DNA of 43,057 nt from Candidatus Gastranaerophilales bacterium (GTDB lineage: Bacteria; Cyanobacteriota; Vampirovibrionia; Gastranaerophilales; Gastranaerophilaceae). The notes beneath the pieces are model-generated. The model made no database searches, was not told the origin of the DNA, and saw nothing but the letters and a program-made list of their open reading frames with translations. Location of the stretch: the NCBI GenBank assembly GCA_905236055.1, contig CAJOOA010000044.1, forward strand, positions 1 through 43,057, read 5' to 3'. Below, piece after piece: positions 1 to 34,408 of this stretch. Made by a program: the position numbers and the translations under genes. How positions within the stretch are numbered: position 1 is the first letter of the stretch; each line of letters begins with the position of its first letter.

Positions 1-215
1 ATCTCAAAGTGTTCACGAGATTTTTTATCAACGTGAGGTGAACGTAATACGCAATAAATACGTCTTTTTGTAGGTAAAGGAATCGGGCCTGCTACTTTAG
101 CGTCTGTTCTCTTTGCCGTTTCTACGATTTTTTCAGCAGAAGCGTCAACCAATCTGTGTTCGTAAGATCTCAAACAAACTCTGATTCTTTGTCTTTTTGA
201 ATCTGTTGCTGCCAT
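1..215 (-). CDS. rpsJ: 30S ribosomal protein S10 (3' end truncated by window edge)
   Basis: Reverse-strand translation [71 protein letters not shown]; typical S10, most like cyanobacterial S10. Confidence 0.97.
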
Positions 216-378: not shown

Positions 379-396
379 TTTACAAAAATTTACAAT
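379..396 (+). promoter_or_regulatory. HLR1-like (RpaB-type) direct-repeat element, perfect consensus match
   Basis: TTTACAAA-AA-TTTACAAT fits (G/T)TTACAWW N2 (G/T)TTACAWW. Confidence 0.6.
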
Positions 397-419
397 CCGG
401 GTAAAATTTTTCATAAAAA

Positions 420-437
420 TTTGTAAATTTTTGTAAA
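420..437 (-). promoter_or_regulatory. HLR1-like element, perfect consensus match on minus strand; inverted partner of 379-396
   Basis: Reverse complement TTTACAAA-AA-TTTACAAA; 379-395 and 421-437 form a perfect 17-bp inverted repeat; -10-like TATAAA at 446-451. Confidence 0.6.
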
Positions 438-514
438 GATTAACGTATAAATCCTAAAGTTTTCAAAAAAAAAGCCGTTATACATGCAAAGGGAAAACCG
501 AAAAGGAGTAATTA

Positions 515-3088
515 ATGGCATCAGGAATAAGCGCATTTTACTTATTTGTAACGAAACATGGCGGCTTTGAGCAATTCAAGCGTGATGCTGATACTAACAG
601 TAATGACACAGTGCAATTTAATGAGCTGTACAATTACGTAATGTCAAACAATCAATTATCAGGTATTGTATCTGCTGATGATATGTATAATATTTGGAGA
701 GGTCTTGATGTAGAAATTACCGGAAACAACCCTGACGCATCAAACAGTGTATCAGAAGACGGTTCATTAAACGGAACTGAAGAGGATAGATTTAAATTTA
801 GAGTTACAGTTTATGGCGAAATGTCAGCAAAAGTTGGTGATGTGGTCAGAGAAATTGCGGGAAATAGCGCGTTTTCTGGTTACAACCTGAATGAAGATGC
901 ACTCGAAGCATTGGTTATAGACAGCATATTAGATGCTTGTAACGGGAATATTGAACGTGTATCGAGATATTTAAATACTTCTCAGGCAAATTCAGATATC
1001 AGAAAATTCGTCTTACAAGGCGCACTCGTTATGGTATCGGAAAAATTGTATGAAAGTATGCAATCTTATGTTGCTTCATACAACAACTATGAATTAAAAA
1101 ATGATAATGATTTAAAATCATTGATAAAAGGTTATATAAATACTCAGACAACAACTCAGGGAGTTGACCTAAATCAGATAGTAAATAATCTTACCAATAT
1201 TATAGGTAAGTATATGAATACAGCCGGAATAACGACGGGACAAACCTATAGCGCTCCTGTTGAATGGGAAGGCAAAATGAATCAGCTTCAGTTAGCTGTT
1301 TTAGAAACTAATTGGCGAAATGCCATAAATAATATTCCGGAAGCTTCTCAGTATAATTCATTTTCTGCAGAATTATTTGAAAATGCAATAGACACATTTA
1401 TTGATGCACAGAAAGCAATATGGACAGAGGCATCTACTAATGAATTTAGTACATACAATATCTCTGCCTCAAGCATTCAATCTATGTTCAGAGATTCTGA
1501 TGAAATGAACATACTTGACCACATTGTTCAAATGGGCGAAGTTGCAGATGACGTAGCCGGTTACGAAGGCAATTGGTCAGATTTCTATGGTGATGGTTCT
1601 GCTTCTCCGAATAGTTGGATGGGTGAAAATGATCCGAGGAGAATTGCAGCTGTAATATTCTACTTTGGCGGTTTCAATATATTCAATAATGAAGAGTTTT
1701 CACAACTGTTTACTCAAGATGTATTTATGAAATATTTAAAACTTGCATTTAAAGATATAACAGGCAATTTAGAAGAATATGGAATATCTAATACCTCTAC
1801 ATGTACTCAACAGGATTTGCAGAATGCTGTATTGAAGTACTTTAAGAATAACCTAAGAAGTATATTGCGTGATATGGGTGTAACTGATGAATCTGTTATC
1901 ACAAATGCTTTGTATATGAACTTTAATGGTACATATGACATAATCCATAACGAAAAAACAGAAAATTACGGCAATTATGAAATTGATGAATTGAGAACAT
2001 ACGCTCAGACTCTTGTTGACTATATAGTTAGCAAATATGGTTCAAATTCTGAAGTTGCCGAGGTAATAAATGAATACTACTTGTATGAGATAGAAAACTT
2101 AGATATCGACGAATTAAAGGAAGGTATTGATGCCCTGATGGAGGCCGTGAGAACAAGTGTGTCAGAATACCACAGACTTGATCCTGATCAGGCAGCTGCA
2201 GCTATCACGTTAACAGTTACAAATTTTGTGGATGCGAAGAATCCGTCTCATAAGCAGACTGTAAGGGTATGGTTGCGGAGCATAGCTGACAGATATCTTG
2301 AAGACTTTACCGGATGGAGTATTAAAGACTTTAAGGCCGGGTTAGAAGCTGAGTTCGAAAAATGGTATAACAGTCCAAGGGCAGTTCTGATGGCCGGAAT
2401 TGAAAACCTGGATTCATATAAAGCATTAATTGAAGAGGACTGTGATAATTATAATGGCTGTACCGACGAACAACTCGCAATGTTAAGACAAGTTCTGATA
2501 GATATGATTGATTACGCTTCTGTAATTGGCGTAAGACTCCGAACATTTAGTAATGGCGAACTCGATCCTGTAACTTTAGGTAATAATTACGGTACTTCAA
2601 ATGCTCAGGATTTGTACAACTTGATTATTGCAATAAAAAGACAAATCAATTCTATAAACGGAGGTGATATGGATGCCCTTGCCGGCAAGTACGGAGACGG
2701 TACTATAGAGATATATGTTTCTTCAAATGGTAAATATGTCAGCACATCACGCAGTGTATCAGCCAGTGAAATTGGAAACGTAAGTGTTAACAGCGATAAC
2801 GATACAGGATATACGTTATATTCTAAATTAGATCACGCAAAAAACCGTGTAAAATGTGGAATGTACGGAAGAATAAGAGAACAAGCGCAAAATGTATTTA
2901 ACAGATACAAAATTACTGGTTGGGAATCATGGTTTGAAAGTACATTTGATGAGAATGTAGGTGCTGCCGTTTGGGATAACTGCTATAGCGTTACAGGTGG
3001 TTGGAGAGTACATTTAAGAGATTCATGTAAAGACCTGAGAAGTTATATGCAATCAAGTGTCGAAAACTATATACGACAACATTTATAA
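515..3088 (+). CDS. Uncharacterised 857-aa protein with EF-hand-like loops near the N-terminus
   Basis: Long ORF with AAGGAG RBS (aaaaggagtaattaATG); N-terminal DTNSNDTVQFNE fits the 12-residue EF-hand loop; followed by a terminator. Confidence 0.9.
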   Translation: MASGISAFYLFVTKHGGFEQFKRDADTNSNDTVQFNELYNYVMSNNQLSGIVSADDMYNIWRGLDVEITGNNPDASNSVSEDGSLNGTEEDRFKFRVTVYGEMSAKVGDVVREIAGNSAFSGYNLNEDALEALVIDSILDACNGNIERVSRYLNTSQANSDIRKFVLQGALVMVSEKLYESMQSYVASYNNYELKNDNDLKSLIKGYINTQTTTQGVDLNQIVNNLTNIIGKYMNTAGITTGQTYSAPVEWEGKMNQLQLAVLETNWRNAINNIPEASQYNSFSAELFENAIDTFIDAQKAIWTEASTNEFSTYNISASSIQSMFRDSDEMNILDHIVQMGEVADDVAGYEGNWSDFYGDGSASPNSWMGENDPRRIAAVIFYFGGFNIFNNEEFSQLFTQDVFMKYLKLAFKDITGNLEEYGISNTSTCTQQDLQNAVLKYFKNNLRSILRDMGVTDESVITNALYMNFNGTYDIIHNEKTENYGNYEIDELRTYAQTLVDYIVSKYGSNSEVAEVINEYYLYEIENLDIDELKEGIDALMEAVRTSVSEYHRLDPDQAAAAITLTVTNFVDAKNPSHKQTVRVWLRSIADRYLEDFTGWSIKDFKAGLEAEFEKWYNSPRAVLMAGIENLDSYKALIEEDCDNYNGCTDEQLAMLRQVLIDMIDYASVIGVRLRTFSNGELDPVTLGNNYGTSNAQDLYNLIIAIKRQINSINGGDMDALAGKYGDGTIEIYVSSNGKYVSTSRSVSASEIGNVSVNSDNDTGYTLYSKLDHAKNRVKCGMYGRIREQAQNVFNRYKITGWESWFESTFDENVGAAVWDNCYSVTGGWRVHLRDSCKDLRSYMQSSVENYIRQHL

Positions 3089-4772: not shown

Positions 4773-4790
4773 TTAACAAAACTTTACAAA
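4773..4790 (+). promoter_or_regulatory. HLR1-like element (one mismatch)
   Basis: TTAACAAA-AC-TTTACAAA; identical 18-mer recurs at 32935-32952. Confidence 0.5.
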
Positions 4791-4800
4791 AGCCCTAAAA

Positions 4801-4818
4801 TTTGTAAACTTTTGTAAC
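4801..4818 (-). promoter_or_regulatory. HLR1-like element, perfect consensus match on minus strand
   Basis: Reverse complement GTTACAAA-AG-TTTACAAA; TATAAT at 4826-4831, 8 bp downstream. Confidence 0.6.
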
Positions 4819-4891: not shown

Positions 4892-5329
4892 ATGGCAATA
4901 GCAAATTTACAAGAATCATTAATATCATACACTTTACGGAAAAGTGACCTTCAGTACGAGATTTCAAAACTGTGGGATATGAAAAATCTCTATGCTATGC
5001 AGTCATTGGATACCAATTCATTATTCAGTGCAGGCAAAAATGAACTTATAAAAAAATATAAAAAATTGTATGAAAACAATCCTGAATATCAAGCTAAGTA
5101 CGATAGCTACAGAGACATGGATGACTATATAGAAGAACTTAATAAATTAGAAGCACACTTCCAAGAACAGTTGGAAGAATTGTCAAATTGCGAAACGGAA
5201 ATCGATAATTCTATAACCCAAAAAGATGCAGATATGAAAGAAATAGAAGCTTACGAAGAAGCAATGAAGGCAATGCTTAAGAGCAATATACAAGGAGATT
5301 TCAGCTTCGGGGTTGCAACAGGGGGTTAA
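4892..5329 (+). CDS. Uncharacterised 145-aa helical/coiled-coil protein
   Basis: ORF rich in K/E/L/Q heptad-like sequence; starts shortly after a -10 box; ends 3 bp before the convergent antiporter gene. Confidence 0.75.
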   Translation: MAIANLQESLISYTLRKSDLQYEISKLWDMKNLYAMQSLDTNSLFSAGKNELIKKYKKLYENNPEYQAKYDSYRDMDDYIEELNKLEAHFQEQLEELSNCETEIDNSITQKDADMKEIEAYEEAMKAMLKSNIQGDFSFGVATGG

Positions 5330-13723: not shown

Positions 13724-16700
13724 ATGTGGGATAGTGGTTTTATGGCAGATATTGATAATTTGGCGGAGATTAATGAGAACTTTGACACAGTTAAAACCCT
13801 TTTAAACTCTATAAGAGCGCAGGGTATTTTGAATACTTCTGATGTTGATAAATTGCTCAGCGGCATAAATGCCAAGCTGGAAAAAATAAACACGGAAGAA
13901 GATATTGATTTAATCAAAGTTTTTCTTACAGAATTGAAGAAAAGCTTAGATGAAAGATATGGTGTTTTGGTTTCAAAGTTCGGGGCGATTGAGTCTTTAT
14001 TTTCGAATCTTTTGAAGAATAGCAATGAATTAACAAAAGCGTCTGAATTGAAAGAACTTTTTGACATTGTTGCAACAAACTTGTCAGTTTTTTCACGTGA
14101 AGTTGTTTCTCAAAAAGAAGCTCTAACAGATATAACACTGCGTTTAGATGCTTTGAGATCAGATGATTCTCAGAAAAAAGATATTATAAAAAATATAACA
14201 CTTCTAAAACCGGATTTAGACAGATTAAATAACGGTTTTGACACAATTGTCTTGAGCTTAAATGATAATTTCAAAACCCTTGCAAAAACCTTGTCCACTA
14301 TAGATAAAACAGAATATTTAGACAGATTTTCCGGCAGTCTAAATAATATCGAAACTTCTTCGGCCGCTTTATTATCTGCATTGCAAATGTTGGATAAAAA
14401 GACAGGTGATGTTGATAATTTGGTAAAAGAGTTGGCAACAAAATCAGATATTGAAGCTACGGGAAGAAATATATCCGAATTAAAACTCTTAAATCAGGGT
14501 ATTAGCGAATCTATAAACGGAATTAATAATCATTATTCAAAAATTGATGGCTTGGCAGATAAAATTGATGCGTCAGTCAATGTTATTGCCGGATTGAAAT
14601 CGCTCTTAGAAGAAGCAGAAGATAAAAATGAAAGGGTTGTCTTAGAAAATATTGAAAGATTAAACAATCTTGTGGATGAAATTAAAGATAACAGATCTTT
14701 TGAAGATTTTAAGGCAGCACTCGTTTTAGGTTTGAATGAAATTTCCGAAAACTTTGCCGCTGCAGATAAAAAGTTAAATTTAAATGCAGAAGTGGCTGAG
14801 TCTGTTCTTGAAATGCTAAGAACTCTCGATGTAAATACGAGTTTTAGTCGTATCTTATCAGCCATTGAGAGTGATAAATCTGAGATAAAAGGTCATATAG
14901 AAGATAAAATTCAGGATTTTAAATCACTGAGTGAATCGAACTTGTCTAAAATTGTTCAAAACATTTCTGTCAGCGCAGACGATTTAAGTGCAAAAATGGC
15001 ACAAAGTAAATCTGAAATCTCAGCAATATGTGCTGATGGTTTTGGTTCAATTGTCGGCGACATTACGGAATTAAAAAAGACAGTTACAGAGTTAGATGAA
15101 AATAATGTTTCTTCGAATAATGCAATGTTTTCAAATATTACTGACAGATTTAATTTGTTTGAATCTGCATTGAAGGAATCTTTGGAAACCCAAGAAAATG
15201 TTGCGAAAAACGCTGCAGAAAAGCTTTGCGAACAAGTTGAGAATATTAAAAACTTCTCAGGCGTTTTGGATTATAAAATGGATTCTTCTGTTGTTGAAAT
15301 TTCAAATATGAAGATGATGTTTGAATCGTTAAAAGCTTCTGTTGACGATGTGCTGGCGCTTAATTTCGTAGGAACGGTTAAAGATTTACGTGCTGATATA
15401 TATGCATCAAAGCAGGATTTATCAATAGCTTTAGATTCTTCTTGCAATAATGTATCAGAAAATGTAAAAAATGATATAAACAGTAAATATCAGCTAATTA
15501 TCGGTAAACTGGATTCTGTAGAGGACGAATTTACAAAAACACAAACGGCCGCTTTGAATTGTGTCAAAGACATATTGGATAAAGTTATGGCTTCATTGGT
15601 TGATATAACTTCCTACGTAAGTGAAGCAAAAGAATTTCCACTAGAAGAAATTGATAAAAAAATATCAGGCATTTCTGATGTGGTTAAGGATGCAAATCTT
15701 AACTATATAGATGCGGTTCGCGATATCGTTGAAGTTATTCGTGTTCAGATAGAAAATGACATAAAGAGCATTGAGGAAGATGCAAACAGACGCATGAGTT
15801 TGATGAGTGACAAGCTCGATAAAAATACTGAATATTTAAAAGATGAGATAAGAACATCCTGTGAAAAACTTCTTGAAAGCTCCAAGTTATATGAGGAAAT
15901 TAAAGATTTAATTAATTTAAATACAGTAGATAACAGCAACGGTTTTGAAAAAATGTTGCAAAACATCAATAATGTTAACTCGGAGTTTGATAACAAGTTA
16001 TCAGTTTTAAAATCCGCTTTGTTAGATAAAATTACGGATGTAAAAACAGAGTTCTTTAAAGATAGTGCTGATAAAATAAGTGAAGTTAAGCTCGAGTCGG
16101 AGGATTTGCTTAGCAAGAATGTTCAAAAAGTTTCCGATATTGCAGACGATTTAAAATCAAATATAATGAGTGTTGCATCTAAAAATGACAAAACGCGTGA
16201 GGCCGCTCTTGAACAGATGCAAGTGGAATTCAATGACATAAAAACAAAAATTGAAACATTGGCTGAGGATAATTCCGGATCAAGAACAGGTGCTTTGGCT
16301 AAAATACTTGAAAATTTTGTCAGCTTGAAAGATTATTTCCAATCGTTAAATTCTCAAACTTCAACAAATATCGATAATAAGATCGAAATGATAATTGAAT
16401 ATTTTGAATCGGTTAAGGCAATATTGAAAAAAGTCGATGAGAATGTTGATGGAGATATGACAAGACAACTTTCAATTATTGAAAGCAATTTCGAATCATT
16501 AATTTCTCAAATGACAATTTTAAATGAAAAGGCCGAACAATCTCTTGTCGAAAAGATTAATGACGAATATAAAAATATATCTTCGCAAATCGATGAAAAT
16601 GTTACACAAAAATTAGAAGAATATAAAACTAAGATTGAGTCTATATTTGGGGAACTACTTGAAAAGACACAGGATCAATCTTCATACATGCAAGAAAAGA

Positions 16701-19396
16701 TTTCCGATATCAATTCGGTAATGATATCTGTATGGAATTCTCAATCTGAGAAGAATCATAAACAAATTGATGAAATCGCCGATAGGTTAAAAGGCATTTT
16801 GGATAATAATATTGAGGCAACATCGGCTGATTATGCAGTTCTTAAGGAAAAACTTGAGGGATTTACCGAAGATTTGAAATCGACTAACGAATTAATGACA
16901 CAGAATCTTCGGGCACAATTAGAGGACATGATGAAGTACATGGATTCAATAATTGATGTACAGACTCAGGAATCAGATGCGCATATTGATGAATTTATCA
17001 AGTTAATAAATGAGCTGATGACCAAGAATAGTGAACTTGATGATAAGATACAAGCTTTGCAGGAAAGCACAGCTAATTTGAACCAAAATGTTGAAGAAAA
17101 GTCATCTGTTGGGGTTGAGGCGATAAATGCAGCGGCTGCAAAATTATGCGAACAGTTAGAACTGGAAAAAGAAGCAGTATCTGCGGTAAAGGATTTTGTA
17201 TCAAATGCAATGCAGAATAAATTAAAAAATATTTCTGCCGACATAGAAAAAGAAACTGACGCAATTATAGCAGAATTGATGGAACAGTTTGAAATTATTA
17301 AACAATCTCAACAAGACGTTGCCACTCAAATAACTGCCGGATTGGAATCAGTAGTAGAAACGCACGTATATAACAATATCGAGGATTTAAAATCATATCT
17401 TGATATAAAAACCGATAATTCCGTATTGACGGAAAAAATGGATAATTTAAAGGTGGAAATAACTGCATTGATGGATAATGCGGTTACGGATTTGGATAAA
17501 ATGTTGAATGCGGATGTTTTCACTTCTGCGCTTTCGGATTACAGAGTCGCAAATGAAATTCTTATAAATTCTGCTGTGGATCGGATTAATGAAAAAATTG
17601 CAAACTTCATTGGCGAAACTGCAATGCATACTTCTGAAGAGCTTGGGACAGAATTAAAGAGCATTGAAAATAAACTCGCCATGTTTGATAAGGGCTTTGT
17701 AGATACAATTGTTGATAAATATGAAGAAATAAAACTTGAGTCTAACAAGTGCAATGCTTATCTTGATGAAGTTAATAAATTGGTTAAGAGTGTATTTACT
17801 GAATTTCAAGATATTAAAGGCGATTTGAGTTCTACTATAGGCAGATTGTCCGATAATATTAAGATTCTTTCAGATAATACAAATTCCGGACTTAAACAGT
17901 TAAATGATTGCTTTGAACGTTTACGTGCTCAGATTTCAAATCGAGCTTTGGATGAAGCATTCCAAGCATCAATAAATAAACAAATTAATTCATTAGAAGA
18001 TTTAATTAAAGAGCAATCTTCATACATTGAAGATATAAATGACTTATGCGGTATCTCTTTGCCTGATCTTACAGAATTGGGAACTATAATAAAAGGTTCG
18101 GTACTTGAATCATTGGATAAGCTCAATCAAAAAACCGAAGATATTTCGGATATGATGGGTAAGCAAAAGTTAGCGGAATCAATTGAAGCTGCTTTAAAGA
18201 ATACTAAAGCAGATATTATAACCCAGTTCTTAAACATATTTAATCAAATATCTTTTGTTGCAGAGCAAGAGGAGATAATTGATTACATACAAGACAGACA
18301 CGATGAATTGATTACAATTCTGAGTCATATAGTAACAACAACATCTGATTTATCATCAGTAAAAGACAGTGTTTCTGTAATGAGCGACAAAATGGAATCG
18401 CTTCGCGATGAAATTGGTCAGATAAATGAAAAAATAACGAATATCATTTCGGCTGACGGAGATGTTGATTATGTATATAGTCTTCAGGATTTAGAGTCAG
18501 ATATCGCTAATTTCAGAATAGTTCTTAAAAATATGCAAGATAATACGCCTGAGTATGGAAATGAGCTTGAAAATTTAATGTCTTCAACAGAAAAAGTGTA
18601 TAAACTTGTTGAGTCAATTAAAGACGAATTACCAACCAAAGATGCTTTTGAAAATCTTACCGAAGATATAGTAAGCATAAGTTCTCGTACGAATAAGTTA
18701 ATACTAGCGTCTGATGAATCATATAAAGCATTACATGATAATTTGCAAGATTTTAAACTTGTAATCAATGACCTTGATGAAAGAACACGTAATTTCGCAC
18801 ACGAATCAGGTATGGACAGAATTGATTCCAAATTAAATGCTCTTAATACGATGGTTCAGAACGGGGCAAAGACTAATCAGGTATTTAATCAAGTATTTGA
18901 ATATATAGCAGAGTGGATTGATAGTGCCGGCTCTCAAATAAATGCTATATCTGACAGAGTTGAGATGCTTGACGATATAGGTCAGATAAAAGTTATGCTT
19001 GCCGATTTGAAATCCGAAGCAGAGGATAATTCTGAGAATGTTGAACTTATTGAATCTTTGGGAAATGTTTTCGATAAACAAGCCAGAAAAATTGCCTCTC
19101 TTGAAGCGAAATTGGATAAAATCATTGTTGAAAATACTATAAATAACAACAAGAACAAGATTGACATGAAGCCGATGGAAGATACTTTAAACAAGTTCTT
19201 GACGGCAATTGGAGATAAAATAACTTCACAACAGGAAAAAATTAATACCTTAGAGACGCAACTTGAAAGAGTTGCAGGCATGTTGGAAGAAAAAGACACT
19301 GCTCAATTGACGAAAAAGATGGGCGGTATGGACAGACAAATAGCCAAATTAAATAAAAGTATTGAAAAAATAGCATCTCATGTTGTTGAAAAATAA
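13724..19396 (+). CDS. Giant (1890-aa) coiled-coil protein of unknown function
   Basis: Single uninterrupted ORF, K/E/D/L/S/N-rich heptad-like sequence throughout; alternative start M at 13742. Confidence 0.92.
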   Translation: MWDSGFMADIDNLAEINENFDTVKTLLNSIRAQGILNTSDVDKLLSGINAKLEKINTEEDIDLIKVFLTELKKSLDERYGVLVSKFGAIESLFSNLLKNSNELTKASELKELFDIVATNLSVFSREVVSQKEALTDITLRLDALRSDDSQKKDIIKNITLLKPDLDRLNNGFDTIVLSLNDNFKTLAKTLSTIDKTEYLDRFSGSLNNIETSSAALLSALQMLDKKTGDVDNLVKELATKSDIEATGRNISELKLLNQGISESINGINNHYSKIDGLADKIDASVNVIAGLKSLLEEAEDKNERVVLENIERLNNLVDEIKDNRSFEDFKAALVLGLNEISENFAAADKKLNLNAEVAESVLEMLRTLDVNTSFSRILSAIESDKSEIKGHIEDKIQDFKSLSESNLSKIVQNISVSADDLSAKMAQSKSEISAICADGFGSIVGDITELKKTVTELDENNVSSNNAMFSNITDRFNLFESALKESLETQENVAKNAAEKLCEQVENIKNFSGVLDYKMDSSVVEISNMKMMFESLKASVDDVLALNFVGTVKDLRADIYASKQDLSIALDSSCNNVSENVKNDINSKYQLIIGKLDSVEDEFTKTQTAALNCVKDILDKVMASLVDITSYVSEAKEFPLEEIDKKISGISDVVKDANLNYIDAVRDIVEVIRVQIENDIKSIEEDANRRMSLMSDKLDKNTEYLKDEIRTSCEKLLESSKLYEEIKDLINLNTVDNSNGFEKMLQNINNVNSEFDNKLSVLKSALLDKITDVKTEFFKDSADKISEVKLESEDLLSKNVQKVSDIADDLKSNIMSVASKNDKTREAALEQMQVEFNDIKTKIETLAEDNSGSRTGALAKILENFVSLKDYFQSLNSQTSTNIDNKIEMIIEYFESVKAILKKVDENVDGDMTRQLSIIESNFESLISQMTILNEKAEQSLVEKINDEYKNISSQIDENVTQKLEEYKTKIESIFGELLEKTQDQSSYMQEKISDINSVMISVWNSQSEKNHKQIDEIADRLKGILDNNIEATSADYAVLKEKLEGFTEDLKSTNELMTQNLRAQLEDMMKYMDSIIDVQTQESDAHIDEFIKLINELMTKNSELDDKIQALQESTANLNQNVEEKSSVGVEAINAAAAKLCEQLELEKEAVSAVKDFVSNAMQNKLKNISADIEKETDAIIAELMEQFEIIKQSQQDVATQITAGLESVVETHVYNNIEDLKSYLDIKTDNSVLTEKMDNLKVEITALMDNAVTDLDKMLNADVFTSALSDYRVANEILINSAVDRINEKIANFIGETAMHTSEELGTELKSIENKLAMFDKGFVDTIVDKYEEIKLESNKCNAYLDEVNKLVKSVFTEFQDIKGDLSSTIGRLSDNIKILSDNTNSGLKQLNDCFERLRAQISNRALDEAFQASINKQINSLEDLIKEQSSYIEDINDLCGISLPDLTELGTIIKGSVLESLDKLNQKTEDISDMMGKQKLAESIEAALKNTKADIITQFLNIFNQISFVAEQEEIIDYIQDRHDELITILSHIVTTTSDLSSVKDSVSVMSDKMESLRDEIGQINEKITNIISADGDVDYVYSLQDLESDIANFRIVLKNMQDNTPEYGNELENLMSSTEKVYKLVESIKDELPTKDAFENLTEDIVSISSRTNKLILASDESYKALHDNLQDFKLVINDLDERTRNFAHESGMDRIDSKLNALNTMVQNGAKTNQVFNQVFEYIAEWIDSAGSQINAISDRVEMLDDIGQIKVMLADLKSEAEDNSENVELIESLGNVFDKQARKIASLEAKLDKIIVENTINNNKNKIDMKPMEDTLNKFLTAIGDKITSQQEKINTLETQLERVAGMLEEKDTAQLTKKMGGMDRQIAKLNKSIEKIASHVVEK

Positions 19397-32934: not shown

Positions 32935-32952
32935 TTAACAAAACTTTACAAA
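32935..32952 (+). promoter_or_regulatory. HLR1-like element (one mismatch), identical 18-mer to 4773-4790
   Basis: TTAACAAA-AC-TTTACAAA. Confidence 0.5.
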
Positions 32953-33008: not shown

Positions 33009-33026
33009 ATTATAAACTATTGTAAA
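33009..33026 (-). promoter_or_regulatory. HLR1-like element (one mismatch), inverted partner of 32935-32952
   Basis: Reverse complement TTTACAAT-AG-TTTATAAT; TATAAT at 33035-33040, 9 bp downstream. Confidence 0.45.
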
Positions 33027-33061: not shown

Positions 33062-34408
33062 ATGAACCCTGCTGACATATTTTTAAATATTTTCGTAATA
33101 GCATTTTTGCTATTTGTTAACGGTTTTTTTGTAGCTGCGGAATTTGCTCTTGTAAAAGTCAGAAAAACAAGATTAGAACAGCTTTGTAATGAGGGGAATT
33201 CTAATGCCAAAAGGGCCTTAAAATTAGTTAATCAAACGAACAAAATGCTTGCAGCGGCGCAGCTTGGGGTTACGATTGCAAGTATTGCATTAGGTTGGGT
33301 TGCAGAGTCCACTATGGTGCAACTAATTGAACCCTTGATAAAGTTGATACCCGTAGTAAATCCGACAGTTACAGCGCATGTTATTGCAGTTCCGATTTCA
33401 TTTATTTTGGTAACATATTTCCATGTTCTGTTAGGTGAACAGCTCCCAAAGTGCTTTGCTTTAAGGCATACAGACAGTTTAGCACTTGCTGTTGCGACTC
33501 CTATGGATATGTTTATATCCTTGATGAAACCTTTTGTTTGGCTTTTGATGGTCAGCGGTGATAAAATTTTGTGTGCATTCCACGTGTCAGCAGAAGATGC
33601 ATCTCTCGTTCATTCCACAGAAGAATTGGATATGCTTGTGGATGCAAGTTATAACGAGGGTGTTTTGAATGAGACCGAAACGGAAATGCTTCACAATATG
33701 TTTAAGTTTTCGGATTTAATGGCAAAACAGGCAATGACTCCGAGAACTGATATGATATGTATTCCAAATGACATAACTTATGATGAGTTGATTAAATTTG
33801 CGTTGGAAAATCAATATACGAGATATCCCGTTTATGAAGAGGAAAACATTGATAAAATATTGGGCTTTATTCATGTAAAAGATTTGTTCTCACTTGCTAT
33901 GAACAAAGAGGATTTTTCAATGGAAAAACTAATACGTCCATTGATGTTGGTTCCGGAAACAATGACGTTGGACAACTTGACCATTGAATTTAAGAAAACT
34001 CACGGCCAGATGGCGATTGTTATTGACGAATTTGGAGGAACTTCGGGTTTAATAACCTTGGAGGATGTTTTAGAGGAAATTATTGGCGAAGTTCAGGATG
34101 AATTTGACGAAGAAGAGGAATTAAATATAGAGAAAGTCGGCGAGGATACTTATATCGCTAACGGAATGATGAGAATAGATGAGTTTGTTGAATACTTCGA
34201 TTTGGACGAATCACAGTTCGAAGAAGATGATGTTGAAACGATTGCCGGCTTAGTTGTTAAATTATTGGGCCGTATTGCGGAAATCGGAGATTCTGTTTCC
34301 TTTAATGGTCTGACTTTCAAAGTTATTGAAGTCGATGGTGCAAGAATAACTAAACTTGAAGTCGTAAAAGAACCAGTAGAGGTTCAGCAAGAAAATTCGG
34401 AAAATTAA
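33062..34408 (+). CDS. Hemolysin-like CNNM/CorC (DUF21 + CBS + CorC_HlyC) transporter
   Basis: DUF21 TM domain; MTPRTDMICIP…YTRYPVYEEENIDKILGFIHVKDLF…VIDEFGGTSGLITLEDVLEEIIGEVQDEFDEE. Confidence 0.95.
   Translation: MNPADIFLNIFVIAFLLFVNGFFVAAEFALVKVRKTRLEQLCNEGNSNAKRALKLVNQTNKMLAAAQLGVTIASIALGWVAESTMVQLIEPLIKLIPVVNPTVTAHVIAVPISFILVTYFHVLLGEQLPKCFALRHTDSLALAVATPMDMFISLMKPFVWLLMVSGDKILCAFHVSAEDASLVHSTEELDMLVDASYNEGVLNETETEMLHNMFKFSDLMAKQAMTPRTDMICIPNDITYDELIKFALENQYTRYPVYEEENIDKILGFIHVKDLFSLAMNKEDFSMEKLIRPLMLVPETMTLDNLTIEFKKTHGQMAIVIDEFGGTSGLITLEDVLEEIIGEVQDEFDEEEELNIEKVGEDTYIANGMMRIDEFVEYFDLDESQFEEDDVETIAGLVVKLLGRIAEIGDSVSFNGLTFKVIEVDGARITKLEVVKEPVEVQQENSEN

Follow-up and report, generated by a model that had tools for sequence, protein, structure and literature searches.

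The window analysed here, 43,057 nucleotides of contig 44 of a Candidatus Gastranaerophilales assembly, opens with two divergently read genes. The 5' part of rpsJ, which encodes ribosomal protein S10 (1-215, minus strand; Pfam PF00338), has a candidate sigma-70 promoter, TTGACT-N17-TACGAT, at 352-324 on the minus strand, and its neighbour encodes an 857-residue protein (515-3088, plus strand). Between them lie two predicted operators of the HLR1/RpaB type in opposite orientations: TTTACAAAAATTTACAAT at 379-396 on the plus strand and TTTACAAAAATTTACAAA at 420-437 on the minus strand. Both match the consensus KTTACAWW-N2-KTTACAWW with 0 mismatches, and 379-395 is the reverse complement of 421-437 at 17 of 17 positions, which confirms both sites, their coordinates and the 17-bp inverted repeat as originally predicted. 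Read toward the gene, an HLR1 site becomes WWTGTAAM-NN-WWTGTAAM, and 420-437, the putative proximal activator site of the 857-residue protein's gene, reads TTTGTAAA-TT-TTTGTAAA.

Exactly 17 bp beyond this proximal site (spacer 438-454), a near-perfect promoter of the sigma-28 type, TAAAGTTT-N11-GCCGTTAT, occupies positions 455-481. Its -35 element TAAAGTTT (455-462) is separated by 11 bp from its -10 element GCCGTTAT (474-481), and a ribosome-binding site, AAGGAG, follows at 503-508. We take TAAAGTTT-N11-GCCGATAA to be the consensus of sigma-28 (FliA) promoters and presume, from FliA promoters in general, that transcription starts at about position 488. The length of the spacer between operator and -35 element is fixed across promoters and species.

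What role could be assigned to the distal site at 379-396? It may be an auxiliary site or serve the control of the divergent rpsJ. The inverted pair was considered as a general functional unit and rejected: an opposite-oriented partner at a distance of at most 120 bp accompanies only 10 of the 53 exact sites in the genome, and the homologous promoter of a sister species (G188) has a single site, with no counterpart of 379-396. Other such arrangements are found in the window. A third exact site (4801-4818, minus strand) stands 73 bp before a gene for a 145-residue protein (4892-5329, plus strand) and has an inverted HLR1-like partner with one mismatch at 4773-4790 (plus strand). Inverted HLR1-like sites with one mismatch each (32935-32952, plus strand, and 33009-33026, minus strand) also precede a gene for a CNNM/CorC-type membrane protein (33062-34408). 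Altogether the window holds 18 HLR1 matches with at most two mismatches against 7.2 +/- 2.7 in shuffled sequence, and none of 100 shuffles reaches 18. Rfam gave no match in the window, and a 1890-residue open reading frame (13724-19396, plus strand) has only a sub-threshold, apolipoprotein-like Pfam match.

The motif is strongly enriched in the genome as a whole, for which counts were obtained from pattern searches together with retrieved stretches of its sequence. Its 1.76 Mb contain 53 exact HLR1 matches compared with 4 for the reversed-pattern control (Poisson probability about 4e-40), and the motif thus stands out over controls, as had been proposed for checking the prediction. All 53 sites are intergenic by our gene calls, even though coding sequence makes up about 87% of these loci. 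The first 100 TTACA pairs listed for the genome include about 21 that are separated by 5 bp, as in HLR1, and about 3 for each other spacing. The sites are typically read antisense to a gene whose start is 65-110 bp away. Four of them (L008:1501, L025:3012, L028:7592 and L033:3952) share near-identical flanks, TATTAAGCAA-site-TGCCCAAAACC, have no in-register promoter of either class described below, and possibly represent a repeated element or a promoter type of their own. Two further sites lie near regulatory genes. An HLR1-like sequence (15/16) immediately upstream of the rpaB start codon (L048:2177-2194) makes autoregulation of rpaB possible. Another site (L209:1334-1351) is located 170 bp upstream of a gene for a group 2 sigma factor (L209:270-1163, minus strand), which is reminiscent of the control of rpoD3/sigD by cyanobacterial RpaB (PMC13421787). 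No operator matching at 14 or more of 16 positions was found before fliA, rpoD or the gene of a SigF-like protein in the stretches examined.

The arrangement seen at the 857-residue protein's gene recurs at many sites of this set. Downstream of the 53 exact sites, TAAAG is found at an offset of 17 bp in 18 cases and of 16 bp in two, with otherwise three scattered matches. The 18 aligned promoters give the consensus ttTGTAAA.ttTTGTAAcaATt...t..AaAa..cTAAAGTTTT...aaAAaaTGCCGttATAcatg. The same association emerges when the search starts from the promoter. Strict sigma-28 promoters were picked by TAAAGTTT-N9..13-GCCG alone, and 36 of the 37 were covered by the stretches examined; 25 of these 36 have an operator matching at 14 or more of 16 positions 16-17 bp upstream, whereas shuffled upstream regions yield a mean of 0.04 and a maximum of 1 in 300. 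In a few other sigma-28 promoters the operator stands at 7 bp, closer by one turn of the helix, and some promoters from the strict search have none. Neither a sigma-28 promoter nor one of a second type is in register with about a third of the 53 sites.

This second type is characterized by ACTT(T/A)ATATAT, of which 11 of 17 occurrences have an operator (at least 14/16) 37-40 bp before the ACTT, a fraction that describes stretches fetched largely for their operators and not the whole genome. The -35 element of these promoters is CAATT- or AAATT-like and again lies about 17-19 bp from the operator. A SigF-like protein (L210), which scores below all subfamily cut-offs, is a candidate for the corresponding sigma factor. 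For the first type, the genome encodes a sigma factor of the FliA family (L212) that exceeds the cut-offs of both TIGR02479 (226.9 against 189.6) and NF005413 (214.6 against 201).

Which protein would read the operator? The RpaB orthologue whose presence the original prediction had made a point to check is found in the genome (L021:961-1749), scoring 353.2 bits with NF045944 against the NCBI equivalog cut-off of 330. It shares 86-94% of its residues with counterparts in the family and about 70-74% with the RpaB proteins of photosynthetic genomes, next to which it groups in a tree of regulators that was used for this grouping only, given its long branches among distant rows. Its nearest named matches are RpaB proteins of Candidatus Gastranaerophilales metagenome assemblies. 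The recognition helix, DTRVVDVHISRLRSKLE, that is DTRVVDVHISRLR(S/A)KLE, is the same as in photosynthetic RpaB. Three OmpR-family regulators are encoded in all, and the two others differ in the recognition helix and have RpaA as their nearest relative among solved structures. The partner kinase is less clear-cut: the search for an NblS orthologue returned L055 as a candidate by best hit, but its 325.6 bits are far below the NCBIfam equivalog cut-off of 1000. An NblS homologue has been called in relatives by other authors (PMC3787301), and an NblS-like kinase such as L055 may act upstream of RpaB here as well.

The genome lacks PsaA and PsaB, and all 88 genomes of our phylum sample that have them lie outside its family. 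The source is a non-photosynthetic, gut-type relative of the cyanobacteria, in line with the expectation of a genome without photosynthesis from this lineage. Among 196 genomes of the phylum, the excess of HLR1 over the reversed control is found in nearly all members of the family and also in many photosynthetic genomes; in the genus it amounts to about 48 sites against 2 for the reversed control. The composite, defined as operator-N14..18-TAAAG, occurs in 108 of 118 family genomes with 8 reversed-control matches in all, and the motif accordingly recurs in related genomes. The richest genera have 14-28 composites per genome. In photosynthetic genomes the number falls to 0-2, and most of these few either are spaced differently or lack the CTAAAGTTTT context. 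Two sister species together have 37 composites, 35 of them with a 17-bp spacer and the other two with one of 16 bp, and the start codons concentrate 70-100 bp further downstream. The HLR1 excess is absent from three genomes (G077, G097 and G107) that belong to the same class but to a different family: their RpaB has the same recognition helix, yet each genome has only 0-1 exact sites. The orientation of HLR1 in photosynthetic genomes is suggestive at most, because a TTGACA-like box lies 5-6 bp past the antisense-read site in only 5 of 41 cases.

The proteins behind these promoters are mostly orphans without a Pfam family. A Pfam search with 30 of the 36 target proteins called, including the two of the window, returned only a flagellin, SurE, an ABC transporter, sub-threshold EF-hands and other sub-threshold matches; the flagellin gene has the operator without a strict sigma-28 match. 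The 857-residue protein matches no Pfam or NCBIfam family, and its residues 26-37, DTNSNDTVQFNE, make up an EF-hand-like loop. A close-relative scan of the genome contigs found no relatives, and a protein search at 1e-5 through 118 family genomes detected nothing beyond a weak paralogue encoded in the same genome (L051:3157-6180). It was only through the shared composite promoter that a divergent homologue came to light in the sister species G188 (L315:33-2570, minus strand): a collinear protein of 845 residues, about 25% identical overall, with a BLASTP value of 2e-8 in a single comparison and an alignment z of 14. Its promoter has one operator, matching 16/16, at 17 bp, and no rpsJ-like gene occurs in the 2.4 kb upstream. 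The 857-residue protein is thus not the only one of its kind, since a homologue with the same promoter exists in a sister species.

Several target families are shared between species, and several small proteins are among them. One small family has an N-terminal EF-hand-like loop and is linked to the 857-residue protein via the weak paralogue. Another, whose members start with MG(L/M)AxSQAR, forms a cluster of 13 without a Pfam match. Composite promoters precede this family (L015, L019, L042 and L045:9754-11112; relatives also in G147 and G188) more often than any other. By eye no signal peptide is evident in it, and export by the flagellar apparatus is therefore worth testing.

How could these elements work together? 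We consider it likely that 420-437 is the operator of a promoter dependent on both RpaB and sigma-28 (FliA). In this model, which is built on sequence comparisons, a dimer of RpaB would bind the two TGTAA half-sites, 10 bp apart, and contact FliA-carrying RNA polymerase from a set position 17 bp before TAAAGTTT; the fixed spacing with its helical phase points to such a contact. RpaB would thereby activate the gene of the 857-residue protein and roughly two dozen others with a composite promoter, and a further group of genes would combine this operator, similarly spaced, with the second promoter type. We infer both that RpaB is the binder and that binding activates. Four observations speak against the model: the near-absence of exact sites from the other family of the class despite its RpaB with the same helix, the third of the sites that lack a promoter in register, the low NblS score of L055 and the strict sigma-28 promoters that have no operator. 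In photosynthetic cyanobacteria, activation by RpaB goes with sites at about -66 to -45 and repression with sites at -38 to +23 (PMC13421787). Relative to the presumed start at about 488, the site 420-437 spans about -68 to -51, and activation is likelier than repression at this promoter because this position is close to the published activation window.

The original prediction had favoured the opposite sign, with RpaB as a repressor and the minus-strand site overlapping the -35 region of a promoter whose -10 element would be TATAAA at 446-451. That hexamer is indeed present, and HLR1 sites near the core promoter do repress in cyanobacteria. However, TATAAA at this position is not common to the other promoters, and we discarded it as the -10 element in favour of the near-perfect sigma-28 promoter at 455-481, which recurs in register at many other sites and places the operator upstream of the core promoter. 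Repression of this kind now appears quite improbable. The AT-rich repeats could also be thought of as an UP element read by the alpha subunit of RNA polymerase, with no regulator site at all, and their composition and fixed position upstream of the -35 element would suit this; the strict TGTAA direct repeat with its 10-bp period, the enrichment of the exact consensus over an equally AT-rich reversed pattern and the match to a known operator make it very improbable.

We give next to no credence to the idea that a mobile or repetitive element was copied to these places in the genome. It could draw on the near-identical flanks mentioned above, but these are shared by only 4 of the 53 sites and the others are unrelated; moreover, the positions of the sites follow promoters that differ in sequence outside the elements. 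That another DNA-binding protein reads the sites, for example an RpaA orthologue or the third OmpR-family regulator, is unlikely. Both other regulators are closest to solved RpaA, and RpaA and RpaB have some promoters in common in S. elongatus (PMC13421787). Against this stand the recognition helices of the two, which are unlike that of RpaB, the identity of the motif with the published RpaB consensus and the strong conservation of the RpaB orthologue across the phylum. The operator code by which photosynthetic cyanobacteria tune photosynthesis to light is thus present in these gut bacteria too, where RpaB probably switches on genes behind sigma-28-type promoters.

Reports of 2013 and 2014 described homologues of RpaA, RpaB and NblS in Melainabacteria, and regulators of photosynthesis in organisms without photosynthesis have been a noted puzzle since 2013 (PMC3787301, PMC4040986). 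Among the open-access papers searched, we found no paper that joins HLR1 with Melainabacteria or Gastranaerophilales, and no published RpaB site, regulon or function in this lineage. With a specific candidate regulon, a candidate operator and a candidate promoter architecture, the function of RpaB in Melainabacteria becomes directly testable. An operator code of photosynthesis would here be in use without photosynthesis and joined to another sigma factor, and co-regulation opens a way to study dozens of orphan genes of gut bacteria. A more far-reaching interpretation, which we voice tentatively and think rather doubtful, is that RpaB and FliA run a dedicated programme of fast-evolving surface or exported proteins in Gastranaerophilales, and that this motility-type coupling goes back to a function that RpaB had before photosynthesis arose, from which the light regulon of cyanobacteria is derived.

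The individual parts of this system are of known kinds, and what appears to be new is the way in which they are combined in this lineage and for these targets. The closest parallel is the NblS-RpaB/HLR1 regulon of Synechocystis PCC 6803 and Synechococcus elongatus PCC 7942, with which it shares the 18-bp operator KTTACAWW-N2-KTTACAWW, an orthologous regulator with the same recognition helix and, going by the presumed start, an upstream, activator-like position. The differences concern the targets and the promoters: photosynthesis genes are absent here and the targets are mostly orphan proteins, and sigma-28 and a second non-standard promoter take the place of sigma-70-type promoters. The class 3 flagellar promoters of enterobacteria likewise combine a promoter of the TAAAGTTT-N11-GCCGATAA type with a sigma factor of the FliA family, whereas most of those described here have an OmpR-family operator in fixed register and most targets are not recognisable flagellar genes. 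A third precedent are the class II promoters of Escherichia coli controlled by PhoB through the Pho box, at which an OmpR-family activator binds direct repeats oriented toward the promoter and in fixed phase to RNA polymerase. The HLR1 composites would share the type of activator and have the promoter-ward direct repeats and the fixed phase, but their operator has a different sequence and, instead of replacing the -35 element, is positioned 17 bp upstream of it.
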